Position numbers and translations under genes: made by a program. Shown piece after piece: positions 54,054 through 61,382 of a DNA stretch of 64,000 bases; the stretch's first letter is position 1, and every line of letters starts with the position of its first letter. The notes beneath the pieces were generated by a model. It did not search any database. It was given only the letters and a program-made list of their open reading frames with translations, and was not told where the DNA came from. Source of the DNA: Marinilabiliaceae bacterium (GTDB lineage: Bacteria > Bacteroidota > Bacteroidia > Bacteroidales > Marinilabiliaceae). Where the stretch lies: contig JABUTU010000010.1 in the NCBI GenBank assembly GCA_021443545.1, positions 1 to 64,000 of the forward strand, given 5' to 3'.

Positions 54054-55625
54054 CTACATCTTCACAACAATGCGTTTACTGAGGGCACTCTCCGACCTCA
54101 TCTTGGAGATAGCAGAGACTCTGAAAACATACTTCCTTCTGTCGCTTCGTCTCGTTGCAACAGACAGTTGAATATGACTATCGGACGTAACGGCATAGAT
54201 ATGTTCAGGTCCGAGCATATCAGGCGTTTCTCCCTTCGGGTAACGATAGACACAATAGAACCTTACATTGGTAGTATCGACAGGAAATTCGAGCGACCAT
54301 GAGAGAACTCCTTTTTGTTCTCGTATTATAGGCGAACCAATGTTCCACTTCTCTGAACCGAAACTTTTGAATGGAGTGCGTGCGAATGATGTGTATATGA
54401 TATTCTGCATATCATCCTGAAGTCCATTCAAATCGCGCAGAAACTGCCGATAGCTAAAGAATACACTCCCATTCAGGTTAGCATCATCCCTCACTTTTGC
54501 AATCTGCATTTGCATCTCTTTGTCGTTCTTCCAGTGCTTGGGGCCCTGTGTATTAATTTTAAAGACTGCATGACCTACGAACATCAAGGTCTTTGCTGAC
54601 GCTTGCTCAGACCACCATTTGGTCAACACATCGAAATCCGCAAATTCATAGCCAGACTCCCAATAGACCTGAGGCACTAGGTAGTCAACCAGACCCTGTT
54701 CGGCCCACAACTTGACATCCGCGAATAGGACGTCATAATTGGTTATGCCCGCCCTACTTTGGGAACCATTCTCATCATCCCTAATATTTCGCCACACCCC
54801 GAATGGACTGACCCCAAACTGAACCCATGGCTTGAGAGAATGAACCACCTTCGAGACGTCAGAGATGAAAGCCGTCACATTCGAGCGTCGCCAGTCAGAA
54901 AGAGACAGATTGTCAGGATTATACTTAGAGAACGATGCTGCATCATCGAAGCTCTCACCAGCCACAGGATAGGGATAGAAATAGTCGTCAAAATGTATTC
55001 CATCCACATCATAACGTCTCAACACATCCGACACAACGGATAGCACATACTTCCGGGCTTCTGGCAGACCGGGGTCAAGAATCTTCTTACCACCATATGA
55101 GATGAGCAGTTCTGGATGCTGGTTTATAACATGGCGCTTTGCATAGCGAAACTCCTCTGAAGGCATAGCCCTGAATGGGTTCATCCATGCATGAAGTTCC
55201 AAACCATTTCGATGTGCCGTCTCTATCCAATACTGCAATGCGTCGAACGATTCAAACCTGATAGTATCAGACTCGTGCTCCCACATATAGGAAGTCAAAG
55301 GCTCTATACTACTACGATAGATAGCATCAGAGGCTGGTCGAACCTGCAGAAAGATAGTGTTTAGTTTTAAACTCTTGATATGTCGTACAATTTCATCAAT
55401 ATCTTGTTTCAGACTCTCGACATCATATCTTGTCTCTCGAGGCCAATCAATATTTGCAATTGAGGCGACCCATATCCCACGCATTTCAGCATTTCCTGAA
55501 GATGGGGTTGTATAGGAAGATATCGCTTGCTGAGCTATTGCGTAGATGCATAGAAGAGAAAGCAAAAGTGTAAAAAGAAATCTCATTATTCCAATTAATC
55601 TGGACAAACTCATGTCAACCATCAC
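54054..55625 (-). CDS. Family 10-like glycosyl hydrolase (GHL10/DUF187), secreted
   Basis: 523 aa; 'EMRGIWVASIANIDWPRE', 'LNTIFLQVRPASDAIYRSSIEPLTSYM', 'GLELHAWMNPFRAMP', 'YDVDGIHFDDYFYPYP'. Confidence 0.93.
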   Translation of the reverse strand: MMVDMSLSRLIGIMRFLFTLLLSLLCIYAIAQQAISSYTTPSSGNAEMRGIWVASIANIDWPRETRYDVESLKQDIDEIVRHIKSLKLNTIFLQVRPASDAIYRSSIEPLTSYMWEHESDTIRFESFDALQYWIETAHRNGLELHAWMNPFRAMPSEEFRYAKRHVINQHPELLISYGGKKILDPGLPEARKYVLSVVSDVLRRYDVDGIHFDDYFYPYPVAGESFDDAASFSKYNPDNLSLSDWRRSNVTAFISDVSKVVHSLKPWVQFGVSPFGVWRNIRDDENGSQSRAGITNYDVLFADVKLWAEQGLVDYLVPQVYWESGYEFADFDVLTKWWSEQASAKTLMFVGHAVFKINTQGPKHWKNDKEMQMQIAKVRDDANLNGSVFFSYRQFLRDLNGLQDDMQNIIYTSFARTPFKSFGSEKWNIGSPIIREQKGVLSWSLEFPVDTTNVRFYCVYRYPKGETPDMLGPEHIYAVTSDSHIQLSVATRRSDRRKYVFRVSAISKMRSESALSKRIVVKM

Positions 55626-55645: not shown

Positions 55646-56254
55646 TTAATGGCTGTTTAAATCGTTATTAACCTGCTCAATATATGAGAGCACCTCCTCA
55701 CGTCCCGTCCGACGTTCAGACGAAGTGACAAAATAAGGAGGCATCTCCTCCCACTCCTCGAGCATCTTAAATTTATAGTTCTCTATATTCTCTGCAAGTT
55801 TTGCAGGAGAAAGTTTATCCGCCTTAGTAAAGATCATAGCAAATGGAACGCCATTTTCTCCCAGCATACGCATAAACTCAATATCAATGCGTTGGGGTTC
55901 GTGACGTGAGTCAATCAGAACGAAGAGCACTGCGAGTCGTTCTGAACCAAGAACATACTCAGTAATTAATTTCTGGAACTTATTCTTTTGGTCTTTGGAT
56001 ACCTTTGCGTAACCATAACCAGGGAGATCCACTATGAATAGGCAATCGTTTATCAGAAAATGGTTGATTAGCTGTGTTTTACCAGGTGTTGCCGAGACCT
56101 TTGCCACGTCGCTACGGTTGCAAAGCATATTGATGAGTGATGATTTGCCGACATTACTTCGTCCTATGAATGCATAATCCCAACGCGAATCAACAGGGCA
56201 CTGGCTTAAAGAAGCGCTACTCTTAACGAAGGATGCCTTAGTTATATTAATCAT
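55646..56254 (-). CDS. ysxC: Ribosome biogenesis GTP-binding protein YsxC/EngB
   Basis: 202 aa; 'DYAFIGRSNVGKSSLINMLCNR', 'TPGKTQLINHFLIND', 'DLPGYGYAKVSK', 'FTKADKL'. Confidence 0.96.
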   Translation of the reverse strand: MINITKASFVKSSASLSQCPVDSRWDYAFIGRSNVGKSSLINMLCNRSDVAKVSATPGKTQLINHFLINDCLFIVDLPGYGYAKVSKDQKNKFQKLITEYVLGSERLAVLFVLIDSRHEPQRIDIEFMRMLGENGVPFAMIFTKADKLSPAKLAENIENYKFKMLEEWEEMPPYFVTSSERRTGREEVLSYIEQVNNDLNSH

Positions 56255-56273: not shown

Positions 56274-56615
56274 TTATTTCACTGGCAATGGAATACTCAA
56301 AGCCTCCGAGCCATCAGGTGCGATGACACTTCCAGAACCAGCGGGTGCCTGTGGAAGCAAATCCTCCACATTGACGTTGAAAGATGGCACAATTATAAAC
56401 TCTTGCATCTGGGCGTCAAGGGTGAACGGCACATCATCTATACGTATATACATATGATGAACATTTGACAACGTGATGAACTCAGGCACCAACTTAACGT
56501 AGGCACCCTCTCCTTCAAGATAATAATTCTCGAAGTCGAGCAGGAACTCATGCAACGTTGTTCCAGCCTTGATTTGAGGGACTGTTTTCTCAATAAACTC
56601 GTCTATAGTAATCAT
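56274..56615 (-). CDS. Small conserved-looking hypothetical protein in the SpoIIE phosphatase operon
   Basis: 113 aa; starts 7 nt downstream of the preceding SpoIIE gene's stop; no family recognised. Confidence 0.65.
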   Translation of the reverse strand: MITIDEFIEKTVPQIKAGTTLHEFLLDFENYYLEGEGAYVKLVPEFITLSNVHHMYIRIDDVPFTLDAQMQEFIIVPSFNVNVEDLLPQAPAGSGSVIAPDGSEALSIPLPVK

Positions 56616-56621
56616 ATTGTA

Positions 56622-58883
56622 TCACAATTCTGATATTCGCATTCCCATCATTAGAACATCGTCAGTCTGTTCTCCACCATTCTGCCAGGCAAGTAGTTCA
56701 TCGTCCAACGACTTCATCTGAAGGTTCAAAGGTAACATATAATATTTTAAGAACAACTCAGTCATGCGATTTCGCTTCATTTTTTTATACAAAGGACCGC
56801 CTAACTGTGATTCATAACCATCTGATGTCATATAGAGACAATCTCCCTTATGCAAGTCGAGGGTCGTCTCAGCATAGGGTCGCTTCACAAATTCTGGGTC
56901 AGTATCACCAATAGAACGTTTCACACCAGGAATTTTCAACATCTCACCTCTTTCGCGCACGACATACGCTGTGTGGCGTGCAAGAGCAATTGTCATTTTC
57001 TGGGTCGACTCATCTATGCATAGCATCGAAATGTCGACGCTGTCATTACCATGTGAAACGTCATTAGTCATCAGTATATTTCTGATACTGACATCAAGTT
57101 CTGTCAGGAGTTTCAAAGGAGTTGGTTCAGGGATAGAAAGCGCCAAATCATTAAGAATTGTTGAGCTAACCATAGCGATAAACGCCCCTGGTATTCCATG
57201 TCCTGTTGCATCACCAAGACAAATAAACTTCTTACTTCCTAACTGAGAAGTCCAGTAGAAATCGCCACTAATAAGAGTACATGGTTTATATAGTACAAAA
57301 TACTCGGAGATATATTTATTTTCCAACGACTCCTTAGCTGGCAGCATACAATGCTGAATGTTACTTGCGTAACGCATCTGCTCGTGTAGTTCATCATTCT
57401 TTTTTTTCAGTTCTTGCTCTCTCTTCTCTAAAACATTTGTCTGACGCACAACTTCACTCTCTAACCTGTGGTTACGTTGCTTTATCTCGTCCGCATGCTT
57501 ACGCATACGACGTGCATTCATGACAAAGGCAACAAAGGCAACAAGAAGCACAACTAAAAGGAGGACTGCAAATACAATCTGACGCCAGAACTTCATATCA
57601 CTGATATGGTTCATCTGATGTTTCAACTGCAAGTCTTGCGAGAGGACTGTTGTATCGCGACTATATTGGTAACTCTTGTATGCAACATTATGGCGGATAC
57701 TCTCTTTTTTCAACGAATCCAGTATTAAATACCGATTCTTCAATACGGAGTAGGCGCACTGATAATCTGCCTTTCTGAAACATAGCCACGATGAATATGC
57801 CATATAACGCATATAATCCGCTATCGACTCCTCCTTGACCCTATCTGGGTCCATTAAAGACAACTCAATACGAGCTGAATCAAGTTGCATTGATGATATG
57901 AAATACCTGACAAAGAGCATTCTCGTTGCTACTGGGAGGTCATTGTTGGGCTCGTTATTTTCCATTTCGCTCAGAATACCAAGGTAGTTTCTTGCCTTCT
58001 CGAAATCCTCTTGCTCAATATAGTAGAGTACCAATACTTCATACAGACCAGTTTCGCGGAGGTATCTTACATCACCATCCTTCGTCATCTCTTCAAGAAT
58101 TCTAACGCAATGTCTTTGCATCGCCACATTCTTGATGGAGTCGGACAGATAGAACAGGGCAACGTTATAGACGCACTCCTCCATCTTATCGCCACGCACC
58201 AATGTCCGTTCCATCTGCGACACATAATTACGACACTCTGTAATATCACCTAATTGCAAGTAGGAACGTTGCAGTTTGTTAAGTATAGAGAATCGATATC
58301 CCTGCATATTCTCATGATCGCAGAACTCCAAGACGCTCTTGTAGCCCTCTATTGCTGTAGCATAGTTACCAACCGACTCCTCATTTGTGTAGATATACGT
58401 CTGAGCGTCCACATAGACCTTATGGTCATCTATCTCCCTTGCTATGTTTGCAGCTCTTGCATACTGACGCAAAGCCTCTTTTACATTTCCTTTCTCCCTT
58501 TCTATATCTGCCAAAAGCATAAGAGCCGACATCTTACGATTAAGAATCCGCTTGTCAAGTGTCTTATGCCTGTCGTAATACTCCATACACTCCCTTAGGA
58601 TTGCACGAGTCTGATCGACATTGCCAATTGAGTAGTATGTCCATGCCATCTCCTGCTTTGCGTATGCCCTGTCGTAATCATTATCAGCCAGGAAATAGGC
58701 ATCGCTAAGCACCTTAAGAGCACTATCTGTCTGCGAACTATAGTAGAACGTATCAGCCTTGTTTATGAGTCCATAGAATCGTTCAGACAATTCACCTCCA
58801 TGCGTACAGGAGTAGAGTAATAACCCTCCCCCCGCACACAATGCAGAGAAGCAAATTAATATGAATTGTCTGTTATACTTCAT
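56622..58883 (-). CDS. SpoIIE-type PP2C protein phosphatase with TPR sensor region and TM helix
   Basis: 753 aa; TPR-like repeats; TM 'IVFAVLLLVVLLVAFVAFVMNARR'; coiled coil; 'ISGDFYWTSQLGSKKFICLGDATGHGIPGAFIAMVSS'; C-terminal 'QTDDVLMMGMRI'. Confidence 0.92.
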   Translation of the reverse strand: MKYNRQFILICFSALCAGGGLLLYSCTHGGELSERFYGLINKADTFYYSSQTDSALKVLSDAYFLADNDYDRAYAKQEMAWTYYSIGNVDQTRAILRECMEYYDRHKTLDKRILNRKMSALMLLADIEREKGNVKEALRQYARAANIAREIDDHKVYVDAQTYIYTNEESVGNYATAIEGYKSVLEFCDHENMQGYRFSILNKLQRSYLQLGDITECRNYVSQMERTLVRGDKMEECVYNVALFYLSDSIKNVAMQRHCVRILEEMTKDGDVRYLRETGLYEVLVLYYIEQEDFEKARNYLGILSEMENNEPNNDLPVATRMLFVRYFISSMQLDSARIELSLMDPDRVKEESIADYMRYMAYSSWLCFRKADYQCAYSVLKNRYLILDSLKKESIRHNVAYKSYQYSRDTTVLSQDLQLKHQMNHISDMKFWRQIVFAVLLLVVLLVAFVAFVMNARRMRKHADEIKQRNHRLESEVVRQTNVLEKREQELKKKNDELHEQMRYASNIQHCMLPAKESLENKYISEYFVLYKPCTLISGDFYWTSQLGSKKFICLGDATGHGIPGAFIAMVSSTILNDLALSIPEPTPLKLLTELDVSIRNILMTNDVSHGNDSVDISMLCIDESTQKMTIALARHTAYVVRERGEMLKIPGVKRSIGDTDPEFVKRPYAETTLDLHKGDCLYMTSDGYESQLGGPLYKKMKRNRMTELFLKYYMLPLNLQMKSLDDELLAWQNGGEQTDDVLMMGMRISEL

Positions 58884-58887
58884 TTTA

Positions 58888-61191
58888 CTATACCGTTATA
58901 ACCATCAAAAGAATATCGTCGGCCTGAACGCTGCTACCCTTCCACATGTTGAGTTGCTGTCGAATATTATTCTGTCTGTCAACAGGGTTCATGGTCATCG
59001 TCGTTTTGATTATTTCAAGCAGTCCTGATAGTTTCAGTTTCTGCATTGTTTCACCATTAATCAGGGATGTCAAACCATCAGTATAAAGATATAAGACATC
59101 TCCCTTATCCATCTGCACCTCTCTATCGGAGAAAGCTCTCAGAGCGAACTGCTCTACATCCTCTCCAATATGCCTCTTTGTACCATGAATTACGATTGCC
59201 TCACCACCTTTTACGACAACGAGGCTTTGGCTTGCAGATGACACATTCAGCATCATAGTATCTGTATTATACACGCATACTGTCATATCTATACCATCTC
59301 TTGCATGAAGAGTCGGCATCATTCGTTTCAGCTGTTCATGCATCTTTTCGAGCAACTCGCCAGCTGTGAGGCGGTCCCCGAAACGGCGCACCACCTCATT
59401 AACCAATGTAAGCCCCACCATTGACATCATTGCGCCAGGTATACCATGACCAGAGCCATCAGCAGAACATATAATGATTCGATTGCCAAGTTTTGTATAC
59501 CAATAGAAATCTCCTGATGTAATCTCATAAGGGCGGTATATTATGAATGCGTGCGAGAACCAGCCATCGTCTTGCAACTTCTCCCTTGTTGGCAGCAACC
59601 CTTGTTGTATTCTCTTAGCGTAGTTCTGCGACCGAATGATATCAGTATTTTTTTGGCTTATCTGCTCATTCTGCTTTCGCAATGTTTCAGTATGCCGGCT
59701 CACCTCCTCTTGTAGCTGCTTTTGGATACTTATGTTGAGTTGCTCGTCAGCCTTATGTCTTCGCCTTGCCACCATAAAGGATATAATGACAATGACTACA
59801 ATCAGGAATACTGCTACTATGGTCAACAGTACTAATCGATTACTCACCACCATGACATTTGCACCAGACTCGTACAACAATGATTTCTGACGCAAGATTG
59901 TGGTGTCGGTCTGAAATATCGAAGAGAGGTCGTCCTGACGTATCTTAGTATGCGTCGTAGCTATAGTATCTGCCGTCAAGACACGTTTATTGATTACCTC
60001 GCAGGCCTTGTTATATTGTTTTAATCCAACGTAGACGCCTTCATAGCAATCGTAATATAGCTCAACAAAGTCAAAACGCCTCATCATACCCTGAGGTACC
60101 GACATACTCTCAAGTATGCTCTTTGCTTGTTCATAATGCTTTAGTGTGACGCAGTTCATTGCCTTTATTAATGGAATGAAATCGTCTGAATATCGATCAC
60201 TCTGCTTAAACTCGTGGGAGGCATAGGATATCTCCTTACACTTGTTGAGGTACAACTCACTCTCTTGCACATTTCCAACCAACGCCATCAGTTTAGCTCG
60301 TTGTATATAACACTTCCACAACTTTGCAGGAGCTGAGATGAGTTCACTGAGATTAAGCAGTTGTACCGACAAGCCCATAGCCTCTTCAAACCTCTTCTGT
60401 TGTATGAGGTAGTCCACTTTCGACTGAAGATAAAAGACCTCTAAATGAGGTTTTGTCCTGTAGTATCCAACTCTATCAATATCTCTCATATAACTGTCTG
60501 CCATATCATTAGAGCATAGCAGGGAGTAGATTCTGAATAGTTGGACCATAGAAAAGAAGTAAATATCCTTAACATTCATCTGGTCGCTACGAATAGCGAC
60601 TTCCCTTGCCTTCTGAGCAGCATTTGAGTACATGTCAGAACGAATAAAACTCTCTGCTTGCATATAGGAACAATAAAGAGTTATAATTTCGTCTCCCGCA
60701 TTCTGAGCCATCTCGCCCGCCTTTCGGAATAGTTGAACCGCCCGTTGCCGACACTCAAGCATATCGAGATATGCCAGAACAGTCTGCGCTATATATGCTC
60801 CTCTCTTCTTTTGCAACTCTTCAGCATGGTCAAAGTAAGTCAGGGCAGACTCAAGTAATTCCCTTCCTTCAAACGATATCCCCATCTGAGCCTTCAGCGC
60901 TATGTTAATGGAATGAGATGTGAAATATGTCGTAGAATCACACACTGCCCTCATTGCCATATTACTCCATCGCTCAGAGCCCCGGAGGTTATTGTTCATA
61001 TAATAGACTATTGCCGAATCAATCGCCGAATAACATAGTTCCGACAACTGCTTTTTATTGGATGACGATGCCTCGTCCTGCTGCGCTGCAACAGGCTCTA
61101 ATGCGCCTACAAACGACAGCACAACGGCAACCAGCATGCATAGAACCCGACGCAAGCTGCAAACTATATTTTCTATATTCCACAAAAGCAT
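58888..61191 (-). CDS. SpoIIE-type PP2C protein phosphatase with TPR sensor region and TM helix (paralogue)
   Basis: 767 aa; signal peptide; TPR-like region; TM 'LVLLTIVAVFLIVVIVIISFMVARRR'; 'TSGDFYWYTKLGNRIIICSADGSGHGIPGAMMSMVG'; 'VQADDILLMVITV'. Confidence 0.92.
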   Translation of the reverse strand: MLLWNIENIVCSLRRVLCMLVAVVLSFVGALEPVAAQQDEASSSNKKQLSELCYSAIDSAIVYYMNNNLRGSERWSNMAMRAVCDSTTYFTSHSINIALKAQMGISFEGRELLESALTYFDHAEELQKKRGAYIAQTVLAYLDMLECRQRAVQLFRKAGEMAQNAGDEIITLYCSYMQAESFIRSDMYSNAAQKAREVAIRSDQMNVKDIYFFSMVQLFRIYSLLCSNDMADSYMRDIDRVGYYRTKPHLEVFYLQSKVDYLIQQKRFEEAMGLSVQLLNLSELISAPAKLWKCYIQRAKLMALVGNVQESELYLNKCKEISYASHEFKQSDRYSDDFIPLIKAMNCVTLKHYEQAKSILESMSVPQGMMRRFDFVELYYDCYEGVYVGLKQYNKACEVINKRVLTADTIATTHTKIRQDDLSSIFQTDTTILRQKSLLYESGANVMVVSNRLVLLTIVAVFLIVVIVIISFMVARRRHKADEQLNISIQKQLQEEVSRHTETLRKQNEQISQKNTDIIRSQNYAKRIQQGLLPTREKLQDDGWFSHAFIIYRPYEITSGDFYWYTKLGNRIIICSADGSGHGIPGAMMSMVGLTLVNEVVRRFGDRLTAGELLEKMHEQLKRMMPTLHARDGIDMTVCVYNTDTMMLNVSSASQSLVVVKGGEAIVIHGTKRHIGEDVEQFALRAFSDREVQMDKGDVLYLYTDGLTSLINGETMQKLKLSGLLEIIKTTMTMNPVDRQNNIRQQLNMWKGSSVQADDILLMVITV

Positions 61192-61338: not shown

Positions 61339-61382
61339 GTTAACGGGGTGTGTCTGGAATCCTGACACACCCCGTTAACTGT
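61339..61382 (-). terminator. Very strong intrinsic terminator downstream of aspS
   Basis: 16-bp perfect stem gttaacggggtgtgtc (61339-61354) with gacacaccccgttaac (61364-61379); minus-strand continuation is T-rich (tttattt). Confidence 0.8.

Follow-up and report, generated by a model that had tools for sequence, protein, structure and literature searches.

A and B, encoded by adjacent genes of a gut Bacteroidales bacterium, are full-length paralogues with a TPR-like sensor region, one TM helix, a coiled coil and a SpoIIE/PP2C domain, and they are followed by a small third gene, C. The conservation of active-site residues across 13 related species points to B as the working enzyme and to its twin A as a protein drifting towards a non-enzymatic, regulatory partnership. 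The explanation that we prefer, tentatively and at somewhat less than an even chance, is that the three genes specify a SiaA-type sensor phosphatase in which A and B would form a heterodimer, C would be an accessory of B, and SiaC-type phosphoproteins would be acted upon in trans.

Organization of the locus

The window, that is, the whole stretch of DNA analyzed here, is a 64-kb part of contig C6 in a genome of 2.85 Mb and 104 contigs. Genes A (58888..61191, 767 aa), B (56622..58883, 753 aa) and C (56274..56615, 113 aa) follow one another on the minus strand, A and B being 4 nt apart and B and C 6 nt apart, and their open reading frames match the coordinates and spacing given in the first-pass annotation of this DNA. 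On the same strand, 19 nt downstream of C, lies the engB/ysxC GTPase gene (55646..56254), and after another 20 nt comes a gene for a GHL10-family hydrolase-like protein (54054..55625; Pfam PF02638, E = 4e-67); both are conserved neighbors. A gap of 229 nt separates A from aspS upstream. It contains a perfect 16-bp inverted repeat (GTTAACGGGGTGTGTC, 9-nt loop; 61339..61379, not assigned to a strand), read by eye, which probably marks the end of the aspS transcript. Our terminator pattern scan, with its loop limit of 8 nt, did not flag this repeat and reported zero terminators, and a scan upstream of A with a Bacteroidota-type promoter pattern returned no site.

Architecture of A and B

Protein A consists of a signal-peptide-like N-terminus, a TPR-like sensor region predicted to be periplasmic (59881..60960, minus strand), a TM helix (59779..59835, minus strand; residues ~453-471), a coiled coil and a SpoIIE/PP2C domain with the motifs SGDFYW, DGSGHG, TDG and DD (58894..59484, minus strand). 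In B, a lipoprotein-like N-terminus (LLYSC) is followed by a TPR region (57615..58694, minus strand), a TM helix (57522..57578, minus strand; residues ~436-454), a coiled coil and a SiaA-like PP2C domain (56634..57227, minus strand). The Pfam SpoIIE model (PF07228) matches A with 70.8 and B with 60.6 bits, both over the curated cut-off of 25, and the equivalents of SpoIIE residues D610, D628, D746 and D795 are all kept in the window's own A and B, in agreement with the initial description of the two as paralogous SpoIIE proteins with intact metal ligands.

Hydropathy assigns to each protein one internal TM helix and, at the N-terminus, an export-type segment that resembles a signal peptide or the start of a lipoprotein. 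In all 14 B orthologues whose N-termini were compared, a cysteine stands directly after the N-terminal hydrophobic stretch (lipobox-like Cys26 in the window, 58806..58808, minus strand), so that B is probably both a lipoprotein and a TM protein; no consistent lipobox was found in A across the orthologue N-termini. The TPR regions ascribed earlier to both proteins are confirmed directly for B (Pfam TPR_12, E = 2.8e-6), whereas the window's own A has no TPR match in Pfam. That this region is of TPR type is suggested by its relatives, as many as 5 of the 14 A orthologues being matched by TPR models, and by B, whose sensor region is homologous to that of A along 327 alignment columns (hhalign 99%, E = 2e-19). 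In both proteins a DTTI motif closes the sensor region a little ahead of the TM helix, and according to the predicted topology these regions would lie outside the cytoplasm. Since their TPR, TM and coiled-coil parts are homologous and their genes lie so close together, the A and B chains could heterodimerize.

Conservation of the locus

The order A-B-C-engB-GHL10 is kept in 14 of 15 genomes of one Bacteroidales genus; the 15th (G056) is fragmented, engB itself was not found in it, and the locus is unreadable there. C accompanies the SpoIIE pair in 13 of the 14 readable loci, as a separate gene in 12 and fused to B in one (G060). The proposed check of linkage thus supports the trio as a conserved unit within the genus. 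C is absent only in G059, from between B and engB (L073:9596-9650), although the A-B pair is present there and A is, judging from its residues, catalytically intact. Consequently, C is not essential to the A-B pair.

None of 18 engB loci examined in other genera of the family has a SpoIIE gene directly upstream of engB. Searches of the 56 other family genomes yielded no homologue of C, and those of a 393-genome sample of the order no convincing one. At this resolution, the A-B-C unit is therefore genus-specific. Searches for C with single proteins and with profiles, which covered 71 genomes of the family, 393 of the order, and also plasmids and viral contigs, produced no convincing match beyond the genus: the weak matches at the order level (E = 0.0005-0.009) were partial and fell mostly in long, unrelated reading frames or in interrupted ones, and a wider C profile left a single match in the order, a 51-aa fragment with E = 0.0045. 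A scan of genome contigs returned only four relatives, all known already, from horse-faeces and other Bacteroidales MAGs.

Catalytic residues are lost in some A proteins but in no B

In an alignment of the phosphatase domains, the metal-ligand aspartates are all present in B of 14/14 species, as they are in the window genome's 8 further SpoIIE paralogues. In A, metal-binding aspartates have been lost in 5 of 14 species (G055, G058, G057, G060 and G068, the A frame of the last being present with 761 aa), a count in which GHG-motif changes in four further A proteins were not scored as loss. In G055 and G058, the ligands are gone at all positions. The A proteins form one group in a maximum-likelihood tree, with a weak bootstrap of 32 and an SH-aLRT of 99. 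On this tree the losses amount to at least two independent events; the B topology would require three, with modest support. Despite the complete loss of ligands, A of the G055/G058 pair is under strong purifying selection (pN 0.13 vs pS 0.79), also within its PP2C-like part alone (pN 0.135, pS 0.82), and the constraint on it is the same as that on the active B pair. Such selection on an A protein without ligands argues that in these lineages A has a selected, presumably non-catalytic role.

The strongest competing explanation is that A and B are two tandem but independent sensor phosphatases, each a homodimer responding to a different signal, with C a minor genus-specific gene and the losses in A a matter of lineage-specific decay or re-use. 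The window genome alone encodes 10 SpoIIE proteins, C has been lost in G059, and the active site of the window's own A is fully intact, so that in this species A and B may both be active; for the window species, two independent homodimers are plausible. Overall we regard this explanation as rather unlikely, since decay would relax constraint, yet dead A is selected as strongly as B, A adjoins B in every species, and residues are lost in A only and never in B. The restriction of these losses to A is in keeping with a regulatory role for that subunit. Of the two possibilities raised at the outset, two separate signals or heterodimers, the second is therefore favored, because the active site is preserved in every B, whereas A has lost it repeatedly and nonetheless stays under purifying selection.

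Protein C

C is 106-124 aa long and diverges fast (16-47% identity to the window copy). In close pairs, synonymous change far exceeds non-synonymous change (dN/dS 0.09-0.15), which, together with its retention in 13 species, makes it a genuine, constrained coding gene. The remote members are tied to the family both by genomic position and by profile comparison (G057, E = 3e-6; G055/G058, E = 4e-4; the G060 fusion, E = 9e-4). An AlphaFold2 model of C, built with eight relatives, is a confident alpha/beta structure (pLDDT 89, pTM 0.82) for which Foldseek found no PDB match with E < 0.1, and profile searches of PDB and Pfam were empty except for one marginal match in one member. C thus retains its initial status as an unrecognised small protein, a genus-restricted alpha/beta protein of no recognised family.

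Small size and operon position liken C to SiaC and RsbV, and the first-pass annotation had offered it as a candidate substrate or adaptor. As a substrate, C would be a phosphorylated switch protein (a new STAS- or SiaC-like one) dephosphorylated by B, within a new module having a further kinase and effector. We consider this improbable, and C as a phospho-substrate is disfavored by several observations. Glu34 is the only invariant residue in the 12 separate C proteins, and none of the serines or threonines is invariant among the 13 sequences. The best such position, Thr48, holds a serine or threonine in 10 of the 13 sequences but Cys in G055/G058 and Glu in G060, where the alignment is uncertain. 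The operon has no kinase, C resembles no known substrate fold, Pfam family or PDB entry, and fusion to the enzyme, as in G060, would be odd for a shuttling substrate. Two specific identities were tried and rejected as well. C has no match to the SiaC family in Pfam (PF09345) and hhalign links it to SiaC with a probability of 0.5 (E = 0.12); for a STAS antagonist, there was no STAS match in 12 members and no STAS-type PDB match to the model.

Gene fusion is often a mark of physical partners. In G060, the B frame continues in frame through a linker of ~50 codons into a C-like domain at its C-terminus. GC3 stays coding-like through the linker (0.75 in B, 0.71 in the linker and 0.65 in the C domain), which disfavors a simple frameshift artefact, and the fusion is known from this one MAG. 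The adaptor half of the earlier proposal is thereby favored, with C as a candidate binding partner of B. When B and C were co-folded as one chain, the domains were predicted confidently, but the pTM was only 0.67, the joint was a low-confidence stretch and there was no confident docking or packing of C on B. For this purpose C of the window, which lies in frame past the TGA stop of B, was joined to it by reading the stop as Trp (code 4), and five relatives with C in frame were used with their stops likewise read as residues; this is a modeling device and no readthrough is claimed.

Linkage alone cannot separate a tie of C to A/B from a tie of C to engB, because the whole A-B-C-engB block is conserved; nonetheless, a role of C with this ribosome assembly GTPase, its linkage to A/B being positional, is the least probable of the readings, for all that C ends 19 nt before engB, since the G060 fusion joins C to B rather than to EngB, and EngB is present in 70 of 71 family genomes whereas C occurs in none of the other 20 genera.

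A possible Sia-type context in trans

The nearest solved structure to the PP2C domain of B is SiaA-PP2C (6k4e; Foldseek TMt 0.90, E = 5e-20), compared with about 1e-12 for RssB and RsbU-type structures. It is also the sole match when the sequence of this domain is searched against PDB (phmmer E = 6.7e-25). The NCBIfam SiaA model (NF038263; E = 1.4e-42 for B) gives the A/B pair 146 and 110 bits against an equivalog cut-off of 700, the PP2C part alone being matched. At the A-B-C locus itself there is no siaB, siaC or siaD, the neighbors being C, engB and GHL10. Elsewhere, the window genome encodes four SiaC proteins, all with the conserved phospho-site motif FNT.SSK, and two SiaB/DUF6272 proteins, with one SpoIIE-SiaB-SiaC operon, one SiaB-SiaC pair and one tandem SiaC pair. 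SiaC (3-7 copies) and SiaB (1-3 copies) are found in all 15 genomes of the genus.

It had been noted that no RsbW-like kinase or STAS antagonist is visible near the trio. This is correct for the window but not for the genome, where a search for such partners revealed one RsbW-like HATPase_c_2 protein and two STAS proteins, all on contigs other than that of A-B-C. Similarly, the suggested unconventional partner-switching pathway need not be wholly new: given the SiaA-like phosphatase domain and the SiaB and SiaC proteins encoded elsewhere, it may be a rewired Sia-type switch. In P. aeruginosa, SiaA dephosphorylates SiaC at Thr68 and SiaB phosphorylates the same site (PMC7647112). SiaC-type proteins in trans would be the most economical target of A/B; since the SiaB and SiaC genes are not linked to the A-B-C locus, they are candidates only.

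Proposed mechanism and related systems

Under our preferred reading, A, B and C would together be a single Ser/Thr phosphatase sensor, anchored in the membrane and belonging to the SiaA/RsbU class. The TPR sensor regions of both A and B would be exposed on the outer side of the membrane, and the two chains would associate by way of TM helices and coiled-coil linkers. B would be the obligate catalytic subunit, and A a regulatory subunit that has kept the fold and lost catalysis in several species. C could be a small cytoplasmic accessory of B, acting by analogy with RsbT on RsbU or as a docking adaptor. Once the sensor is triggered, B would dephosphorylate SiaC-type phosphoproteins encoded elsewhere, which unlinked SiaB kinases would phosphorylate. 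A further-reaching version, which we hold to be possible but rather doubtful, is a two-chain sensor consisting of an active B and, as its obligate partner, an A evolving into a pseudophosphatase. B would be helped by C, a member of a new family, possibly with a new fold, which can be joined to the catalytic chain by gene fusion.

RsbT belongs to the GHKL-type proteins, to which C, its proposed counterpart, has no match. The RsbU-RsbT system of Bacillus subtilis, a PPM phosphatase controlled by a small partner and activated via a helical linker that dimerizes the catalytic domains (PMC12143880), also differs from A-B-C in that the latter has a membrane-bound sensor and two paralogous chains. 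Linker-driven dimerization is the on-switch of the PP2C domain both in SpoIIE (PMC5468089) and in RsbU (PMC12143880), and SiaA-PP2C is a dimer as well (PMC7647112). Like A and B, SiaA of the Pseudomonas aeruginosa SiaABCD system is a membrane sensor with a C-terminal PP2C domain (PMC7647112, 6k4e); it provides both the closest solved structure and the closest NCBIfam model to the A/B-type PP2C, and homologues of its partners SiaB and SiaC are present in the window genome. However, the sensor part of SiaA is replaced by a TPR sensor in A and B, both of which score far below the SiaA equivalog cut-off, and the A-B-C locus has two tandem phosphatases and the extra protein C but no linked siaB, siaC or siaD. 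SpoIIE of B. subtilis (PMC3517971, PMC5468089) shares the PP2C family and the set of metal ligands (D610, D628, D746 and D795), but its membrane and sensor parts are different and its substrate is the STAS protein SpoIIAA. A PPM-fold domain without phosphatase activity, serving as a regulatory or adaptor part as proposed here for A, is known from E. coli RssB (PMC12143880), which, unlike A, is a response-regulator adaptor for proteolysis and not the tandem partner of an active paralogue.

The SpoIIE-type phosphatases studied so far (SpoIIE, RsbU and SiaA) are controlled by dimerization of one polypeptide, and among open-licence papers we found none describing an active/inactive SpoIIE pair of the A-B kind. 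If our reading is true, the conserved active/inactive pair would be a natural experiment in which one subunit has become purely regulatory, as in pseudokinases. It would also show how several sensors are connected to few targets in Bacteroidota that are rich in SpoIIE, SiaB and SiaC genes, and C would offer a first handle on a phosphatase accessory protein among Bacteroidota.

Other arrangements in the window genome also touch on partner switching. The tandem SiaC pair (L041:9480-10265, contig C13) has no SiaB or SpoIIE gene adjoining it; adjacent SiaC pairs occur in most genomes of the genus and might be targets of unlinked phosphatases such as A/B. On contig C14 (L034:10506-17254), the operon of a PAS/GAF-SpoIIE protein, SiaB and SiaC lies beside proteins that, by eye, look like CheR/CheB domains, an arrangement that may connect Sia-type switching with a chemosensory-like pathway. 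Finally, on contig C20 (L101:1504-2181), a 101-aa STAS protein is encoded straight after a 114-aa protein that looks, again by eye, like an Hpt phosphotransfer domain, a pair that possibly links a phosphorelay with a partner switch.
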